Assembly (NCBI RefSeq): GCF_036345915.1
Contig: NZ_CP107785.1
Coordinates: 1,054,001 to 1,118,000 of the forward strand
Length of the DNA stretch: 64,000 nt
DNA from: Nocardia sp. NBC_00565
GTDB taxonomy: Bacteria > Actinomycetota > Actinomycetes > Mycobacteriales > Mycobacteriaceae
Reading direction: 5' to 3'
The notes below the pieces were generated by a model that was not told where the DNA came from, did not search any database, and worked only from the letters and a program-made list of their open reading frames with translations. The position numbers and the translations under genes are program-made. Shown one piece after another: positions 7,599 to 56,793 of this stretch (positions are counted from its first letter, which is position 1; every line of letters begins with the position of its first letter).

Positions 7599-8900
7599 GT
7601 GGCGATCGACGAGAAAGCCGTTGCCGCACTGGCGGATCGGACGCTCGGCCCCGAGCACAAGGGTCTGCCGCCCGCCGCATGGGGCCGCACCGTGCGGGAG
7701 TTCCTGGACGCCGCGCCGCACCTCGACGAGTTCGAAACCCCGGTGCTGACCGTCGATCGCGCCGCCGTCGCAGCGAATGTCGCGGTGATGGCCGACTGGG
7801 CGGCGGCCGCGGGCGTGCGCCTGGCGCCGCACGGAAAGACAACGATGGCGCCGCAGCTATGGGCGCAGCAGTTGGCGGCAGGCAGCTGGGGCATCACCTT
7901 CGCCACCGTGTGGCAGGTGCAGGTGGCCCGGTCATTCGGCGTCGGGCGGATCGTGCTCGCCAACGCGCTCGTGGATCCCGTCGGATTGCGCTGGGTCGCC
8001 GCGGAACTGGCGCTGGACCCGGACTTCGAGTTCGTCTGCTGGGTCGACAGCGTAGAGACAGTCGCGCTGATGGATGAGCACCTGCGATCGGCACCGGGCG
8101 ATCCGCGCATTCGGGTGATCGTCGAACTCGGTGGGCCGCACGGACGTACGGGTGCGCGCACGGTCGAGCAGGCGCATGCGATCGCCGCGGCGGTCGGCCA
8201 CGCCGAACGGCTGACGCTGGCCGGTGTCGGCGGCTATGAGGGTGCGCTCGCCCACGACCGCACCCCGGACGGTGTCGCCGCCGTACGGCACTATCTGGAC
8301 GAAATCGCTCGTCTGCACCGGGAACTCGCCGCCGCCGGACGCTATACCGAACAGGCGATCGTCACCGCGGGCGGCAGCGCCTACCCGGATCTGGTCGTGG
8401 AATGTCTGGCCGGACTCGCCGATGAGCAAGGCGCACAGGGTGTTCCGACCACGGTGGTGTTGCGCTCGGGTGCGTACATCATCCACGACGACGGCTTCTA
8501 CGCCGGTATCTCGCCGCTGGCCGCGCCGCGCAGCGAGCGCCCGTTGCGCTCGGCGATGCACGGGTGGGCGCGCACCGTTTCCCGGCCCGAGGTGGAACTC
8601 GCGCTGCTGGATGCGGGCAAGCGCGATCTGCCCTTCGATGAGGGGCTTCCGGTCCCGCAATTCGTTGCGGGACCGGAAGGTTCATTGAATCCGGCGGCGC
8701 ATGTCAGTGCGCTCAATGATCAGCACACATTCCTGCGGCTGCCCGGCGGTGCGGCTACCGATCTGCCCGTCGGCAGTGTGGTGCGGCTCGGCCTGTCACA
8801 TCCGTGTACGGCCTTCGACAAGTGGCGACTGATTCCGGTCATCGATGATGCCGACGCCGAACGGCCGCGCATCGTCGACCTCGTCCACACCTTCTTCTGA
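7599..8900 (+). CDS. PLP-dependent amino acid lyase/deaminase of the D-threonine aldolase/D-serine dehydratase fold
   Basis: A fold-type III PLP enzyme of 433 residues. The cofactor lysine is K80 in APHGKTT, and the C-terminal metal-binding pair typical of D-serine dehydratase/D-threonine aldolase relatives is H401 and C403 (LSHPCTAFD). The start GTG 7599 is 5-6 bases after GGAAGGAG. It leads an operon with an N-acyl-D-amino-acid deacylase and KDPG aldolase. With a KDG kinase and RidA beside it, the best-fitting reaction is ammonia removal from a D-configured hydroxy-amino acid such as D-glucosaminate, giving 2-keto-3-deoxygluconate. That substrate is inferred from context; simple D-serine/D-threonine deamination is the alternative. 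Confidence 0.8.
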   Translation: MAIDEKAVAALADRTLGPEHKGLPPAAWGRTVREFLDAAPHLDEFETPVLTVDRAAVAANVAVMADWAAAAGVRLAPHGKTTMAPQLWAQQLAAGSWGITFATVWQVQVARSFGVGRIVLANALVDPVGLRWVAAELALDPDFEFVCWVDSVETVALMDEHLRSAPGDPRIRVIVELGGPHGRTGARTVEQAHAIAAAVGHAERLTLAGVGGYEGALAHDRTPDGVAAVRHYLDEIARLHRELAAAGRYTEQAIVTAGGSAYPDLVVECLAGLADEQGAQGVPTTVVLRSGAYIIHDDGFYAGISPLAAPRSERPLRSAMHGWARTVSRPEVELALLDAGKRDLPFDEGLPVPQFVAGPEGSLNPAAHVSALNDQHTFLRLPGGAATDLPVGSVVRLGLSHPCTAFDKWRLIPVIDDADAERPRIVDLVHTFF

Positions 8901-49273: not shown

Positions 49274-49852
49274 TCAGCTGACCCGGGCCCCCTCGTCGGC
49301 GATATCGAGCACACCCAGCAGCCACGGGGTGTAGCTGCCGGGATCGTCGGCGATGGCGTCGCGTAGCGCGTCGGGCTGGATCCACGCATGGTCGGCCACT
49401 TCGGCGGGATCGGGGCGCGGTGCCGCGGTCCGCAAGAACTCGGCATTGAGCCGCCCGATGAGCACGTGATCCCATTCGTGTTCCACCCGGCCGGTCGAGG
49501 AGTCCTCCGCGTGGTACCGATAGATACCCACCTCGGTGAGCGCGGTGGCCAACCCCATCTCCTCGGCCAGCCGGACCGCCGCGGCCGCCACCACCGGCTC
49601 GCCCGGTGCCGGATGGCCACAGCAGGTGTTGGCCCACAGCAGCGGAAACCGCGTCTTCACTGCGGCGCGCTGCTGCAACAGCACCCGCCCGGCCTCGTCG
49701 AACAGCAGCACCGAGAACGCGCGGTGCAGCAGCCCTGGCGCGGTATGAGCCTGCGCCACCGGGCACGCGCCGACCGGCTGTCCGGCCTCGTCGACGAGTT
49801 CAACGGGTAGGGCTTCGCGGTCGGTGATCGGCTCGGCCAGGGTTTCTGTCAC
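49274..49852 (-). CDS. idi: isopentenyl-diphosphate delta-isomerase, type I
   Basis: A 192-residue Nudix-fold enzyme that converts IPP to DMAPP. The catalytic cysteine is C78 in WANTCCGHP, the metal-binding acidic pair lies in VEHEWDHV (E124, E126), and the Nudix helix region is AAVRLAEEMGLA. GTG 49852 overlaps the stop of the coupling mini-ORF (GTGA) with GGCGGAG just upstream. As the last gene of the encapsulin/cyclase/methyltransferase operon it would raise DMAPP, and so GPP supply, for 2-methyl-GPP formation. Confidence 0.93.
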   Translation of the reverse strand: MTETLAEPITDREALPVELVDEAGQPVGACPVAQAHTAPGLLHRAFSVLLFDEAGRVLLQQRAAVKTRFPLLWANTCCGHPAPGEPVVAAAAVRLAEEMGLATALTEVGIYRYHAEDSSTGRVEHEWDHVLIGRLNAEFLRTAAPRPDPAEVADHAWIQPDALRDAIADDPGSYTPWLLGVLDIADEGARVS

Positions 49853-49929
49853 AGCTCCGCCTCGCTGGCACTCGGCTGCGCTGCGACAGACTGTGCTGTG
49901 TCCATGGTTCCTCCGCTGCGCTCCGTCAC
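49849..49929 (-). repeat. MIRU-like coupling repeat with 26-codon mini-ORF between methyltransferase and idi
   Basis: The GTG overlaps the methyltransferase stop (GTGA) and the TGA overlaps the idi GTG (GTGA). The mini-ORF begins VTERSGG and ends QPSASEAEL, sharing the P-S-x-S-E-A end with the elements at 11165 and 27967. It also holds an internal ATG at 49905. Its 3' GCGAGGCGGAG provides the idi ribosome site. Confidence 0.7.
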
Positions 49930-50798
49930 TTGCCCACCTTATCGGCGGCAATCAGCAGGTACTGGAAGCTGCCCTCCTTGTAGGCGGTCAGGAACGGCTT
50001 CTCCACACCGGTCGCGAGCTCGGATTCGGTGCGCAGTTCCCAGTAGGGGATGGTCGCGGCGGTCAGGTCGACCACATCGATCGGCACCAGATTGTGTTCG
50101 GCCATGGCCCGGAAGTACTCGCTGCGTGGATGGATCATGCACCCGTAGTGGGCGTCGATCCAGCTGACCGAGGACGAACGCCCGCCGGTGACATCGTTGG
50201 AGCAGCCGGTGATGCAAACATAGCGCCCGCCCGGTTCGAGCAACCGGGAGAACTCGTCGAACAGATCGGACAGATCCACGTACATGGTGGTTTCGTTGGT
50301 CCAGAGGCCGCGCACGGATCCGGTGTCGAAGCCGGTGTCGAGCATATTCCGGAAGTGGAAGCGCACCTTGTCCGCGACGCCGCGGTGCGCGGCCTGATCA
50401 TTGGCGAAGCCGACCTGATATTCGGAGATGGTGACGCCGTCGACTTGGCATCCGAACCGCTGATTGGCCATGAAACTGGTGCCGCCGCGACCGGATCCGC
50501 CGTCCAGCAGTCGATCACCGGGCCGGATGTCGCCCAGGTGGTCGAGCAGCAGCGTGGCCTGCGCGGTCTCCAGCCGGTGTAGTTCTTTGACGATCCGCTC
50601 CTCGCGGGTGTCCGCCGGTCCGGCCAGCGCCGTCGGATCCGGTTCGCCGATGCCGTAGTGGTGGTGGAAGAGGCCGTCGACCTCACCGAGTTTGACATTG
50701 ACCCGGTCGTCGTTCGGGTTGTTGTTCCAGTACTCGGCGACGGACTTCTGGTAGCTGGTGCGCAGGACGGACCCGGTACCGGGATTGAGCATGGTCAT
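49926..50798 (-). CDS. geranyl diphosphate 2-C-methyltransferase
   Basis: A 290-residue SAM-dependent enzyme that methylates GPP at C2, the first committed step of 2-methylisoborneol synthesis. The SAM loop is RLLDGGSGRGGTSFM (96-110). Segments VKLGEVDGLFHHHYGIG, RFHFRNMLDTGF and NETTMYVDL match, from memory, the Streptomyces enzyme very closely (SCO7701 type). The family's C-terminal GSFQYLLIAADKV is intact, so this gene looks functional. Its ATG overlaps a stop that appears to be the original end of the cyclase gene. It is coupled to idi through a mini-ORF. Confidence 0.93.
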   Translation of the reverse strand: MTMLNPGTGSVLRTSYQKSVAEYWNNNPNDDRVNVKLGEVDGLFHHHYGIGEPDPTALAGPADTREERIVKELHRLETAQATLLLDHLGDIRPGDRLLDGGSGRGGTSFMANQRFGCQVDGVTISEYQVGFANDQAAHRGVADKVRFHFRNMLDTGFDTGSVRGLWTNETTMYVDLSDLFDEFSRLLEPGGRYVCITGCSNDVTGGRSSSVSWIDAHYGCMIHPRSEYFRAMAEHNLVPIDVVDLTAATIPYWELRTESELATGVEKPFLTAYKEGSFQYLLIAADKVGK

Positions 50799-50857
50799 GC
50801 CTGATCATCCTCTCGTGTTGCGTTACTACTGATTGCCTTGCGGTACTGGCTAATTCG
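50795..50857 (-). pseudogene. out-of-frame C-terminal remnant of the 2-methylisoborneol synthase
   Basis: Twenty codons in a different frame from the truncated cyclase (with SQYRKAISSNATREDDQA) run past its premature TAG and end in a TGA that overlaps the methyltransferase ATG as ATGA. That is what the native end of an operonic cyclase gene should look like. It is therefore probably the original C-terminal tail, brought next to the N-terminal part by an internal deletion that also shifted the frame. Confidence 0.55.
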
Positions 50858-51923
50858 CGTGCGCGATGAACCAGCCGGCGATCTCGGTACGCAATCGGGC
50901 GAGCTGGGCCGGGGTCGCATACCGGGACAGATGCTCGAAGGACGTACGGAACGCGCGCAGGATCGGATCGGCCTGCATCGCCCGTTCCAGCTGTGGCGCG
51001 TATCTCGCTGGCAGATGGACGGGATCCATTGCGGCGGCGGCTAATTCGAGCCGAGGACCGAGTTCGGTCTCGGCCTTGGATGCGGTGCCGTCTGGCGCGG
51101 TGTCATCGGCGTCTTCCTCGCAGTAGTAATCGTCGACCGACCATTCGGAGACCGCGCATTTCGCGGCTGCGAGCAGCCGATCGGGATCATTGCTGTCCGG
51201 ATGGGCGAGCATGATCAGGCGGCCGAAGTCGGCATCCCGCAGCTCGTCCAGTCGTCCGGCGTAGAGGCCGATGTCCTGCGCCCAGGCGACGAGCCCGTCG
51301 TTGACCAGTTCGGCCAACGCCGGGTCATCGCGGACCGGTGGTGGACAGTACAGCGGTGGAATCGGTGCCGCAGTGCCGTGCAAGTAGGCCGATGCGGTGC
51401 CCAATCCGGTGGGGCCGAGTGGAATTCGACCCTGCGTTGGTGTTGGGGCGGATCCTGTCGGCGCGGCCCCCTGCGCCGCGCCGACAGCGATCGGTGTGGC
51501 GGCTGAGGCCACCGGTGGCGGCTGGAAGCCAGCCGCCGGGATAGTAGGTGTGCGTGCGGGGTCGGGTACCTGAGTAGCAGGTAGTCCCGTTTCGGCAGGC
51601 GTGGTCGGCGGGAGTAGGAGCGCAGCCGCGCCGAGTCCGCTGGGTCCGAGCAGGCTGCCCGGACCAGGGCCCGTAGGTTCGGCGGGTCGGTCCAGTTCGG
51701 GCGAATCAGCCTCCACCACCTGGGTTTCGGATGATTCTTCGGGAACTGCTGTGCATTGGAGAGTTTCCGTGCTTTCGAGTAGATCCGAGGTATCCGGTGA
51801 TTCCGGATCCTCCAGCGGTAGCGTCGGTGGAGCGGTGGTATCGAGGTTCGACAGCAGCGCGGCGACAGCGACGGCCACGTCATGCGTGGCTGGCGCCGCC
51901 GAGGCTCGGGAGAGCACCGACAT
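50850..51923 (-). pseudogene. 2-methylisoborneol synthase, truncated in the catalytic domain
   Basis: A 357-residue product. Residues 1-185 are a disordered Pro/Ala-rich region with two copies of the GP[ST]GLG[AT] motif (93-99 and 170-176), of the type linked to cargo loading into family 2B encapsulins. Residues 186-357 are the first half of the terpene cyclase: IPPLYCPPPVRDDPA, FGRLIMLAHPD, AAAKCAVSEW and the metal-binding DDYYCEED (264-271). The frame stops at FIAHAN, where the enzyme normally continues for about 170 residues including the NSE metal triad and the RY pair, so no cyclase activity is expected. Start and operon position (15 bases after the encapsulin) are normal. Confidence 0.85.
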
Positions 51924-51938
51924 CGGTCATCACCCCGG

Positions 51939-53345
51939 TCAGTCGGCCTGCCGGGCGACCAGGACGTTGTCGAGCACGCCCAGCGCGTCCGGCACCAGCA
52001 CGGCCGCCGAGTAGTAACAGCTGACCAGGTAGGAGATGATCGACTGGTCGTCGATGCCCTTGAAGCGGACGTTCAGGCTGGGCTCGTATTCGTCGGGAAT
52101 GCCGATCGCGTGCAGGCCGATGACGCCCTGATCCTTCTCGCCCGTGCGCATGGCCAGGATCGATGTGGTCTGGTTATCGCTGACCGGGATCTTGCCGCAC
52201 GGGTAGATCGGGACGCCGCGCCAGGCGAAGACCCGGTGTCCGTCCACCTCGACCGGATCGGGATAAAGCCCGCGCTTACTGCATTCGCGGCCGAAGGCGG
52301 CAATCGCTTTCGGGTGTGCCAAAAAGAATTTCGTGCTGCGCCGCATACTGAGCAGCTCGTCCATATCATCCGGTGTCGGCGCGCCGGACTCGCTGTAGAT
52401 GCGTTGTTTCAGGTCGCAGTTGTGCAGCAACCCGAAGTCGGGATTGTTCACCAGATCGCTCTCGCGGCGTTCGTAGAGCGCCGCGATGGTCAGCCGCAAC
52501 TGCTGTTCGACCTGGTTCATCGGGTCGTTGAACAGGTCGGCGACGCGAGTGTGCACGCGCAGCACGCTCTGCGCCAGGCTGAGTTCGTATTCGCGCGGGG
52601 CGGCGTCGAGGTCGACGAAGGTGCCTTCCAGCAGTGGCTCGCCGGAGTGGCCCGAGGAGATCTCGATATTCGCCTCGCCCTTGGAGTTCTGCGGTTGCTC
52701 CGGTGCGGTCGCCACTCTGGACAATTGCTCGCGCAGTGCCGGGGTGTGCTGGAGTATTTCATCGAGCGTTTGCCGAGGCAGGACCAGCATGGTCGTCTGG
52801 GTGACGGTCTTCACCGTGACCGGCCAAATAGCGGACGGGTCGGTGAGCGTTTCGTCGCCGTAGAAATCGCCCCCGCCGAGCATGCCCAACTTGGTTTGCT
52901 CGCCGTATTCTCCGGTGCCGATCTTGCTGAGTTTTCCGTGCACGATCAGTATGACCTGATTCATCGGATTACCGAATTCGGCGACCACCGTACCGGGTTC
53001 GAGGTCGCGCTGTTCGAATCGTTGCGCGAGCGCGCGCAACACCTCTTCGTCGTCGAAGTCGCGCAGTTGCGGGAGTTCGGTGAGCTCCAGCGGGATCACC
53101 CTGGCCTGCGCGCCATCGATGACGAACTCGACCTCGCCGTTGCCCACGGTATGGGTCAGGCGGCGGTTGACGCGGTAAACACCGCCGTTGACCTGCGTCC
53201 ACGGCAGCATGCGGGTGAGCCAGCGCGAGGTGATGCCCTGCATCTGCGGCTCGGACTTGGTGGTGTGCGCGAGCTGATGGGCGGCACCGGTGCTGAGACT
53301 CTTGCGAACGTTGTTTTCTGTTTGGACCGGCATTTCGATGGTCAT
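51939..53345 (-). CDS. eshA: family 2B encapsulin shell protein with cyclic-nucleotide-binding domain (EshA type)
   Basis: A 468-residue HK97-fold shell protein that self-assembles into a protein nanocompartment. It has an N-terminal arm, then a Crp-like cyclic-nucleotide-binding insertion (about residues 80-210: [45 protein letters not shown]) that marks subfamily 2B, and the HK97 core ([53 protein letters not shown] to the end). 2B shells are known to neighbour 2-methylisoborneol synthases, which they package. The gene is intact, with GAGGAC before ATG 53345, and leads the operon. Confidence 0.93.
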
Positions 53346-53841: not shown

Positions 53842-56793
53842 GTGAAGTTCAATGCGAAGAGTGTGGTCGAGTCGGTGCAGCGGTTGATGGCAACGGCCCA
53901 GAACGGCCTCGAGGTCATCCGCTTCGGCGGGCTGACCACTGATGTCGAATCGTCGCCGTTCGAGATCGTCGAGCGCCGCAGAATGTATCGGCTGCGCCAT
54001 TACTTCCCCGACGATACGACGCCGGGGCGCCCGGTCGCGGTCCTGGTGCCGCCGCTGATGGTGAATGCCGATATCTGGGACGTGAATGCCGAAGACGGCG
54101 CGGTAGGCATCTTGCACCGCGGCGGAATCGACTGCTGGGTCGTCGATTTCGGGTCGCCCGCCAGTGAGGAGGGCGGCTGGGAACGAGATCTGGCCGATCA
54201 TGTCCTGGCGATCAACAGCGCCATCGATACGGTCTGCGAGGCGACCGGCAGCGGCGTGCACCTGATGGGCTACTCGCAGGGCGGCATGTTCGCCTATCAG
54301 ACCACCGCCTACCGGTCCGGTAAAGGCGTCGAGAGCATCGTAACCTTCGGCAGCCCGGTCGACGTCGTCGCCGGCATGCCGTTCGGGCTGCCGTACGGCA
54401 TGGTCTCCGATCTCGCGGAGTTCCTGGCCGACCACGTGGTGACCCGGCTGCCGATCACCGATTCCATGGTCCGGGTCGGCTTCCAAATGCTGGATCCGGT
54501 GAAGACCGCGAAGTCGCGCATCGATTTCCTGCGCCAGCTGCACGATCGGGAAGCGCTGCTGCCCAAGGAGCGTCAGCGCCGGTTCCTCAACAACGACGGC
54601 TGGGTCGGTTACGCGGGTCCGGCTGCCGCCGATCTGCTCAAGCAGTTCGTCGTGCACAACCGACTGATGCTGGGCGGCTTCGTGATCCGGGACCATCCCA
54701 TCTCACTGGCCGACCTCGAGTGCCCGATCCTCGCAGTCCTCGGTGAGGTCGACGATATCGGCCAGCCCGCCGCGGTGCGCGGCATCGTCCGGGCCGCGCC
54801 CAATGCCGAGGTATATGAAGCCAGTTTGGTCGCGGGACATTTCGGCCTCGTCGCCGGCAGCACGGCGACCAGGCACACCTGGCCGCTGGTGCGGCAGTGG
54901 GTCGATTGGCTGGACGGCGATCAGCCGCTGCCACCGGAGATCGTGCCGATGGCAGACCATGTCGCCACCACCCGGCCGACCTCGGCGACCACCCGGGTGG
55001 TGCACACCGCGGCCGCGCTGGCCGAGGCGGGCACCGGTGTCGGCAAGGCACTCGAGGAAATCGCCAGCAATGCCGTGCGCGGTTCGATCGAACTGGCCGG
55101 TGAGGCCGCGCGGGCGCTGCCGCGGTTGACCCGGCTCGGCATGATCCAGCCGCACACCCGAATCTCCTTGGGCCGCTTGCTCGCCGAGCAGGCGCGGCAC
55201 GCGCCGCTGCGCGATCTGTTCCTCTTCGATGACCGGGTGCACACCAACGCGGCCGTCAACGCGCGCATCGATAACGTGGTGCGCGGCTTGATCTCGGTCG
55301 GCATCCGCCCGGCCATGCGCGTCGGCGTGGTGATGGAAACCCGGCCGAGCGCGCTGGCCACCGTCGCGGCCCTCTCGCGACTGGGCGCGGTGGCCGTGCT
55401 GCTCGCCCCCGGCAGCGAGCTGGACCGGGCTATCGAGCTCACCGGCATCAAGGCCTTGGTCTCCGATCCGGAGAACCTGCGGACCGCGGCGGCCACCGGC
55501 ACCCGCGTGCTGGTGCTCGGCGGCGGTGACGCGCGCGACCTCGATATTCCGTCGAGCGAGCAGGTGATCGACCTCGAGCAGATCGATCCCACCCAGGTGG
55601 AGTTGCCCGCCTGGTTCCGCCCGGATCCGGGTCTGGCGCGTGAACTGGCCTTCGTCCTGGTCACCGGCACCGGCGACCGGCCCGAGGTCAAGTACATCAC
55701 CAACCACCGCTGGGCGCTGTCGGCCTTCGGCACCGCGACCTCGGCCGATCTGGACCGCAAGGACACCGTCTACTGCCTTGCGCCGCTGCATCATTCCTCC
55801 GGTCTGCTGGTGAGCCTGGGGGGTGCGATCGCGGGCGGCAGCCGGATCGCGCTGGCCCGCTCGCTGGATCCGATCCGGTTCGGCGAGGAGGTGCACCGCT
55901 ACGGCGTCACGGTGGTGACCTACACGTGGACCATGCTGCGCGACATCCTCGACGCGGAGGTATTCCCCGCCGGACACCAACATCCGATCCGGCTGTTCAT
56001 CGGGTCCGGCATGCCCGCCGGACTGTGGCGGCGCGCCACCGAGCAGTTCGCGCCCGCCCGCGTGCTGGAGTTCTATGCGTCCATCGAGGGCGATGTGGTG
56101 CTGGCCAATGTGACCGGTGTGAAGGCGGGCTGCAAGGGCCGTCCGGTGCCGGGCACCGCGAAGGTGGAGTTGGTCGCCTACGACCCGGTCACCGAGCAGG
56201 TCCGCACGGATGCGTCCGGCTTCGCCCGCCGCTGCGCGGATAACGAGGTGGGGCTGCTGATCGGCAAGGCGACCGAGGGCGTCGACCTCTCCGACGGCGG
56301 GTTGCGCGGTGTGTTCACCGCGGGCGACGCGTGGATGCCGACGGAGAATCTGTTCCGCCGCGACAGCGACGGCGATTACTGGCTGATGGATCGCAAGGAC
56401 ACCGTGATCCGCACCGAGCGCGGACCGGTCTTCACACAACCGATCGTCGATACCCTCAACGACATCACCGCTGTGGACATGGAGGTCGCGTACGGGCTGC
56501 CCGTGGGCGACCACCTCCTCGCGGTCGCCGCGGTCAGTGTCCGAAAGGGCTTCCGGTTGGAACCCAAGGACGTGACCGAGGCGCTGCAGGCGCTGGACTA
56601 CCTGCAGCGTCCCGATCTGGTGTACGTAGTCGAGGAGATCCCGCGTACCTCCTCCTACCGGCCGTCGACGCGGGCCGTGCAGGCGGCGGGCCGACCGCAG
56701 CCGGGACCCGACACCTGGTGGTACAACCGGGCTTCGGAGGTGTACGAGGTACTCACCGATGCCGAAGCGGGTGCGATTCTCGGGACCGACTGA
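53842..56793 (+). CDS. alpha/beta hydrolase - acyl-CoA synthetase-like fusion with degenerate adenylation motifs
   Basis: A 983-residue two-part protein. Residues 40-370 are an alpha/beta hydrolase related to PHA-synthase/lipase types (AVLVPPLMVNADIWDV, nucleophile S145 in GYSQGG, AVLGEVDDIGQP, and histidine in AGHFGLVAGS). Residues 450-960 are an AMP-binding fold: FYASIEG, FTAGDAWM and DGDYWLMDRKDTVIR are recognisable. The phosphate loop, usually S/T-G-T-T-G-x-P-K, reads TGTGDRPEVK (about 606-616), and the A10 lysine region, usually T-G-K, reads PRTSSYRPSTR near residue 935. Acyl-adenylate formation is therefore doubtful. It probably acts on long-chain acyl or mycolate-related lipids (inference). 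Confidence 0.85.
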   Translation: MKFNAKSVVESVQRLMATAQNGLEVIRFGGLTTDVESSPFEIVERRRMYRLRHYFPDDTTPGRPVAVLVPPLMVNADIWDVNAEDGAVGILHRGGIDCWVVDFGSPASEEGGWERDLADHVLAINSAIDTVCEATGSGVHLMGYSQGGMFAYQTTAYRSGKGVESIVTFGSPVDVVAGMPFGLPYGMVSDLAEFLADHVVTRLPITDSMVRVGFQMLDPVKTAKSRIDFLRQLHDREALLPKERQRRFLNNDGWVGYAGPAAADLLKQFVVHNRLMLGGFVIRDHPISLADLECPILAVLGEVDDIGQPAAVRGIVRAAPNAEVYEASLVAGHFGLVAGSTATRHTWPLVRQWVDWLDGDQPLPPEIVPMADHVATTRPTSATTRVVHTAAALAEAGTGVGKALEEIASNAVRGSIELAGEAARALPRLTRLGMIQPHTRISLGRLLAEQARHAPLRDLFLFDDRVHTNAAVNARIDNVVRGLISVGIRPAMRVGVVMETRPSALATVAALSRLGAVAVLLAPGSELDRAIELTGIKALVSDPENLRTAAATGTRVLVLGGGDARDLDIPSSEQVIDLEQIDPTQVELPAWFRPDPGLARELAFVLVTGTGDRPEVKYITNHRWALSAFGTATSADLDRKDTVYCLAPLHHSSGLLVSLGGAIAGGSRIALARSLDPIRFGEEVHRYGVTVVTYTWTMLRDILDAEVFPAGHQHPIRLFIGSGMPAGLWRRATEQFAPARVLEFYASIEGDVVLANVTGVKAGCKGRPVPGTAKVELVAYDPVTEQVRTDASGFARRCADNEVGLLIGKATEGVDLSDGGLRGVFTAGDAWMPTENLFRRDSDGDYWLMDRKDTVIRTERGPVFTQPIVDTLNDITAVDMEVAYGLPVGDHLLAVAAVSVRKGFRLEPKDVTEALQALDYLQRPDLVYVVEEIPRTSSYRPSTRAVQAAGRPQPGPDTWWYNRASEVYEVLTDAEAGAILGTD

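Follow-up and report, generated by a model that had tools for sequence, protein, structure and literature searches.

Truncation of the operon cyclase in a Nocardia Family 2B encapsulin locus and its probable replacement in trans by a distant homologue

The locus described here raises the question of whether a 2-methylisoborneol pathway is dead when the cyclase gene of its operon is broken. The window, that is, the whole stretch of 64,000 nucleotides that was analysed (G000:C1:1054001-1118000), is part of a Nocardia genome assembled as a single contig of 9,711,624 bases. On its minus strand, it encodes a Family 2B encapsulin shell protein of 468 aa (51939..53345), in which an HK97-type SrpI-like domain and a cNMP-binding domain were found (PF19307 and PF00027) and for which NF041163 gave 736.9 bits (cut-off 400). 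The same strand carries the remnant of an operon terpene cyclase resembling 2-methylisoborneol synthase (cyc1; 50850..51923), an intact GPP 2-C-methyltransferase of 290 aa (49926..50798; NF041943, 498.3 bits, cut-off 400), and an isopentenyl-diphosphate (IPP) isomerase ORF (49274..49951; NF002995, 183.3 bits, cut-off 127), the true start of which is probably a GTG near 49852, judging from relatives that align from about residue 31. An acyl-CoA synthetase of the PRK07868 type (53842..56793, plus strand; NF005898, 1582 bits, cut-off 925) is a divergent, conserved neighbour. Every one of these genes except the cyclase reached its NCBIfam cut-off; the sequence-only reading of the locus had taken the encapsulin, the methyltransferase, and the isomerase to be intact, and all three were indeed complete.

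The deletion in the operon cyclase

The cyc1 ORF (minus strand, 51923-50850, stop codon included) encodes 357 aa with the C-terminal end ...GWFIAHAN, and its closest full-length relatives are proteins of 515-526 aa. NF041167 gave 256.1 bits, under the cut-off of 400, over profile positions 39-212 of 366. The gene had previously been placed at 50795..51923; the latter position agreed with our result, whereas 50795 falls within the methyltransferase gene and was corrected to 50850.

Comparison by blastn with the genes of N. pseudovaccinii (G092) and N. anaemiae (G013) indicated that exactly 468 bp, corresponding to 156 codons, were absent in frame. The DNA alignment stopped at window position 50858 and restarted at 50857, the same two points being obtained with both relatives, so that the deletion junction lies at 50857..50858 on the minus strand, with the exact join uncertain by a few bases. 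An in-frame outcome of a deletion is expected by chance in one case out of three. The sequence-only reading had proposed the loss of about 150 codons together with a frameshift, and had suggested alignment with intact relatives for placing the break points. That alignment bore out the internal deletion, its approximate size, and the inactivation of the cyclase in an otherwise intact operon; the change of frame was not seen.

In both G092 and G013, the gene ends with AATTAG, followed by a nearly identical spacer and the ATG of the methyltransferase. Accordingly, the TAG of the window (50850-50852) is the native stop codon, and the stretch 50799..50852 on the minus strand consists of this codon and the native spacer with a ribosome-binding site before the methyltransferase. 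The sequence-only reading had seen here the plausible original tail of the gene, read in another frame and overlapping the methyltransferase through ATGA, an interpretation that has to be abandoned. As the native start, stop, and spacer of cyc1 remain, the downstream genes should still be translated.

The deletion removed 156 codons from the C-terminal part of the gene, about the last two codons being spared. The alignment indicated that two elements were absent, one that reads NDLYSMARE in relatives and that we take to be the NSE motif, and the other the RY near the C-terminus. An Asp-rich motif and an NSE motif were required of a working enzyme in our analysis; the former was retained as DDYYCEED (residues 264-271; 51111..51134, minus strand) and the latter was deleted, as had been recognised from the ORF with its N-terminal domain and its end at FIAHAN. 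The Pro-rich N-terminus is still present in the remnant, with a first motif, LLGPSGLG, in its disordered part (residues 91-98; 51630..51653, minus strand; conserved in the alignment) and a second motif, GPTGLGT (residues 170-176; 51396..51416, minus strand). The predicted model of the remnant had a mean pLDDT of 61.3; as far as residue 183 most values were under 50, and what followed comprised only the first part of the bundle. It matched 170 columns of 3v1v with a TM of 0.41 by target. A Pfam search of the truncated protein found no family. The cyc1 remnant is presumably catalytically dead.

If the 468 bp existed in the strain and had been lost in assembly, the cyclase would be intact, and the occurrence of this particular deletion in one genome only is what such an error would give. 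We regard an error as extremely unlikely, since the genome is a single contig, the join is clean and in frame with native flanks, cyc1 of close relatives decays at other points, and a second cyclase is present, as described below.

A second cyclase and its distribution in Nocardia

When the genome was searched with the cyc1 remnant, one other match was obtained (E 1e-28, 38% identity; 41% with a full-length relative as the query). This gene, designated cyc2, lies 2.5 Mb from the operon (G000:C1:3648751-3650073) and encodes a complete cyclase of the same family (NF041167, 452.7 bits, above the cut-off of 400), with 440 aa from the first possible start and 426 aa from a GTG with a ribosome-binding site. 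The class I metal motifs were found as DDYYAD and NDLFSIKKD, and N333, D334, S337, K340, and D341 were invariant among 31 relatives. The predicted model had a mean pLDDT of 82.5 and was superposed on the 2-methylisoborneol synthase of S. coelicolor (4la6) over 314 columns with an rmsd of 1.6 and a TM of 0.91 by target. The N-terminus of cyc2 is AGPHGLGTELAARF, and a motif resembling GPTGLGT was found there as GPHGLGT. In the accessible part of PMC8346489, the GPTGLGT consensus of 2-methylisoborneol synthase-like cyclases is proposed as a possible targeting sequence. Among the 17 Nocardia cyc2 proteins, GPxGLG was found in 11, and PxGLGT or PxGLGA in the other six. Within 15 kb around cyc2 in the window strain, there was no match for an encapsulin or a methyltransferase. 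Pfam gave eight terpene synthase matches above its cut-off in this genome, cyc2 included; two terpene synthase matches are located on the same strand about 1.8 kb apart at G000:C1:9543923-9546836.

The distribution of both cyclases was examined by searching 150 Nocardia genomes with the full-length cyclase, the methyltransferase, the encapsulin, and cyc2, the last being counted when at least 54% identical to the copy of the window strain. The operon was inspected in all 98 methyltransferase-bearing genomes, comprising 99 loci (G131 has two). Intact cyc1 was present in 79 of the 98. The other 19 consisted of seven genomes with a broken cyc1 (G000, G004, G080, G099, G137, G141, and G142) and 12 in which the catalytic part was absent (G003, G009, G029, G030, G031, G068, G087, G091, G093, G114, G143, and G148). 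In G005 and G140, an intact cyclase was accompanied by a methyltransferase match of partial length. A further full-length Family 2B encapsulin, 82-85% identical to that of the window, was observed elsewhere in the genomes of G009, G029, G030, G031, G143, G032, G041, G129, and G131, and a second GPP methyltransferase, 75% identical to that of the window, outside the operon in G075, G144, G145, and G146.

Intact cyc1 and cyc2 were nearly mutually exclusive. The 17 genomes with cyc2 comprised 16 of the 19 without intact cyc1 and one of the 79 with it (Fisher's test, 1.7e-14, calculated on related genomes that are not independent). Furthermore, cyc2 occurred in 17 of the 98 genomes with the methyltransferase and in none of the 52 without it (Fisher, 4e-4). 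A genus tree was constructed from three operon or neighbour genes, namely the acyl-CoA synthetase at 53842, the encapsulin, and the methyltransferase (99 rows, G131 counted twice), on which the minimum number of changes was 12 for cyc1 loss and nine for cyc2. Among 11 independent pairs differing in cyc1, cyc2 accompanied the loss in seven, the opposite was seen in none, and four showed no difference (sign test, p = 0.0156); in the reversed test with eight pairs differing in cyc2, a mean of 7.3 pointed the same way and none the other way (median p 0.0156). The one genome with both cyclases intact, that of N. anaemiae (G013), looks as an intermediate would.

On this basis, we consider it probable that cyc2 cyclises the 2-methyl-GPP made by the operon and that it made cyc1 dispensable, in other words, that a cargo enzyme has been replaced in trans and that this strain is seen soon after its loss of cyc1. 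The operon methyltransferase would still make 2-methyl-GPP, as had been suggested before and as can fairly be inferred from the intact gene. Judging from its family and fold, cyc2 would then turn this compound into 2-methylisoborneol or a close C11 relative, and since it carries its own GPxGLGT motif, it may be packed in trans into the resident encapsulin. In PMC10520479, the Pro-rich N-terminus of the S. coelicolor enzyme is described as lowering activity and aiding solubility, which fits a non-catalytic role of this region. Presumably, cyc2 arrived first and cyc1 was then free to decay, an order suggested by the one genome with both genes and by the low dS of cyc2 given below. Such a takeover seems to have occurred several times in Nocardia. 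The earlier expectation that the strain should not make 2-methylisoborneol is therefore not supported, as a complete cyc2 in the genome and the genus-wide pattern suggest a takeover.

Some observations speak against the takeover. In three genomes, namely G004 (N. acidivorans), G080 (N. niigatensis), and G099 (N. seriolae), frame changes interrupt cyc1 and cyc2 is absent, although in G080 the encapsulin frame is interrupted as well and sequence errors are possible. In addition, the window strain has seven further terpene synthase matches above the cut-off that might use 2-methyl-GPP. The three genomes would be expected if cyc1 had simply died by chance; the strain would then produce no 2-methylisoborneol, and its operon would either drift or give only 2-methyl-GPP or 2-methylgeraniol. 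The dead cyc1 agrees with such a loss, and a complete cyc2 is no proof of the same substrate. Nevertheless, we judge it unlikely, because cyc2 accompanies most of the genomes without intact cyc1 and because the remaining operon genes are constrained, as shown in the following section.

Movement of cyc2 and decay of cyc1

The DNA identity of cyc2 between the window strain and G142, G141, and G013 was 98.5, 98.0, and 96.3%, respectively, compared with 87-90% for the encapsulin, methyltransferase, and acyl-CoA synthetase genes of the same genomes. Likewise, dS to G142 was 0.031 for cyc2 against 0.42-0.60 for the acyl-CoA synthetase, encapsulin, methyltransferase, and isomerase. Homology around cyc2 was limited to about 1,430, 1,582, and 1,754 bp and the flanks differed; past those limits, comparison of the window strain with the others gave short matches only (32 and 59 bases), and some flanking DNA was common to G141 and G142. 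As the identity and dS of cyc2 are out of line with those of the operon genes and its surroundings differ, these sequences indicate that cyc2 moved recently in the clade of the window, as a single gene.

A 61-nt direct repeat occurs on either side of cyc2 in the window strain (L033:6340-6400 and 8255-8315; 85% identity), the downstream copy preceding a fragment weakly resembling an IS110 transposase (L033:8341-8739; 20.3 bits, cut-off 29). A query from this repeat region gave four matches in the genome. The downstream copy adjoins cyc2 in G013, where a search for the upstream copy found none, and matches in G141 and G142 were located elsewhere. A search of 15 loci for tRNA-type integration sites gave a single tRNA, which lay several kb away from cyc2.

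An even sample of 298 genomes of the order was searched for cyc2 alone, and a cyc2-type match at 1e-90 was obtained in 15, that of the window included. The methyltransferase was adjacent at all 14 other loci. Two encapsulin genes were present beside 10 of them; for the remainder, one locus had a partial encapsulin match and three had none within the stretch. In a cyclase tree of 27 out of the 120 relatives listed, together with 17 Nocardia cyc2 and nine cyc1 sequences, the Nocardia cyc2 fell into two groups. The backbone of this tree was poorly resolved, with a long-branch warning, and the number of cyc2 arrivals is accordingly uncertain.

The same exclusion of the two genes would be predicted if both cyclases were ancestral in Nocardia and each lineage had dropped one or the other, with no recent incoming gene. 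The main group of Nocardia cyc2 forms a single clade and both genes are intact in only one of the 98 genomes, as such sorting would give. The low dS of cyc2 to G142 relative to its operon neighbours and the ends of homology 1.4-1.75 kb around the gene, with different flanks, fit it less well, although these bear on the clade of the window only; the second cyc2 group, which stands apart in the tree despite the poor resolution of the backbone, is a further point against it. We therefore regard sorting of ancestral copies as distinctly unlikely and retain the replacement by an incoming cyc2.

The age of the cyc1 loss was estimated from 165 retained catalytic codons. The dN/dS to the outgroup G119 was 0.103 for the window, 0.097 for G092, and 0.093 for G013, and the pairwise values were 0.120 (window and G092), 0.157 (window and G013), and 0.068 (G092 and G013). 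As the values of the retained codons are near those of the relatives, the branch of the window has gathered few additional amino-acid changes, if any, and the loss of cyc1 is, by this measure, recent. Measured on the G092 gene, the deletions amount to 360 and 181 bp in N. vinacea (G141) and to 591 bp in G142, and their end points differ from those of the 468-bp deletion. A conserved functional short form of cyc1 was also considered and rejected, as close relatives are full length and G141 and G142 break elsewhere. A protein of 243 aa from a 7.9-kb contig (P0016) was 87% identical to the N-terminal part of the window's cyclase; its last residues depart from the reading frame of the family, and it is perhaps another broken copy.

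The stretch between the encapsulin and the methyltransferase was surveyed in the 16 cyc2-bearing operons without intact cyc1. Large cyc1 fragments were found in G000, G141, and G142, and scattered pieces in G137. Mainly the N-terminal part was left in G003 (142 aa), G009 (181), G030 (169), G068 (100), G091 (73), and G093 (84), and little or nothing above chance in G029, G031, G143, G087, G114, and G148. Encapsulin, methyltransferase, and isomerase matches were found in all 16. The dN/dS values of eight pairs without intact cyc1 were 0.03-0.23 for the encapsulin and 0.05-0.11 for the methyltransferase, compared with 0.04-0.14 and 0.04-0.18, respectively, for eleven pairs with intact cyc1. Much of the divergence in the pairs G000-G142, G091-G093, and G137-G087 may be older than the loss of cyc1. 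Within G029/G143/G030/G031 and G087/G114, all without cyc1, the values were 0.03-0.14 for the encapsulin and 0.05-0.11 for the methyltransferase. These ratios indicate that the remaining operon genes are still under purifying selection, a result that counts against a chance loss of the pathway.

The truncated product itself might be kept for a non-catalytic job; its N-terminal motifs could, for example, allow it to fill the shell or to nucleate it. Nine of the 16 operons keep an open frame of 73-357 aa with the native start and at least one motif. The ORFs in the place of the cyclase in G091 and G093 (L123 and L124) contain little beyond the proposed targeting motifs, and their comparison (dN 0.32, dS 0.57, one-sided p 0.043) gave a weak sign of constraint. 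This ratio, however, does not fall below the values obtained for the N-terminus of longer genes (0.30-0.69). Seven of the 16 operons have lost the N-terminal part or carry it out of frame, and young pseudogenes in GC-rich DNA long stay open. Retention of the 357-aa product for such a job is thus very unlikely.

Returning to the replacement of cyc1 by cyc2, a broader scenario can be offered tentatively, as one that we would sooner doubt than assert. A mobile single cyclase that is related to the enzymes of two-shell operons and brings an address motif of its own might enter Nocardia, load the resident one-shell encapsulin, and use the product of the resident methyltransferase. The operon's own cargo gene would then be discarded repeatedly (seven independent pairs), sometimes leaving a motif-only peptide that may occupy the shell.

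Relation to known cyclases and encapsulin cargoes

Although apparently dead, the odour pathway of this strain probably still works, divided between two genomic locations, an arrangement that annotation of single operons would overlook. The genus also offers a natural experiment on the choice of encapsulin cargo, in which the shell faces its own cyclase, a foreign one, both (N. anaemiae), or no complete family member; the proposed targeting motif is open to test where evolution has already exchanged the cargo.

The enzyme family, the operon type, the transfer of 2-methylisoborneol synthase genes (PMC6604706), and cargo encoded outside the operon (PMC8346489) are already known. Repeated loss of the cyclase from this type of operon with a homologue in trans was not found in a literature search that lacked most subscription papers and every preprint outside PubMed Central.

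For Streptomyces, the accessible part of PMC6604706 interprets tree conflicts as transfer of 2-methylisoborneol synthase genes. The likeness to the present case is that the gene moves between relatives; what is described there is tree conflicts, and the loss of a resident copy from an encapsulin operon is a feature of the Nocardia case. Two-shell (two-component) Family 2B operons with a terpene cyclase are described in part of PMC12407261, which also notes two-component operons without obvious cargo. The cyc2 relatives of other genera share with the former a methyltransferase neighbour and, mostly, two shells, whereas the Nocardia cyc2 stands alone in the window strain.

A cargo gene away from its shell gene has a parallel in BfrB of M. 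tuberculosis, which the accessible part of PMC8346489 gives as a Family 1 encapsulin cargo encoded outside the operon. Unlike BfrB, the present case concerns Family 2B, the homologous cargo gene of the operon itself has been lost repeatedly, and loading of the distant cyclase is putative. The operon described in the same source likewise combines a shell, a methyltransferase, and an isomerase, as in this Nocardia. Both the cyc1 remnant and cyc2 share the profile and fold of the S. coelicolor 2-methylisoborneol synthase family (NF041167; PDB 3v1v, 3v1x, 4la5, and 4la6). Unlike known Family 2B operons with a 2-methylisoborneol synthase, however, the operon copy here appears to be dead, and the sole complete family member found in the genome is a distant homologue.
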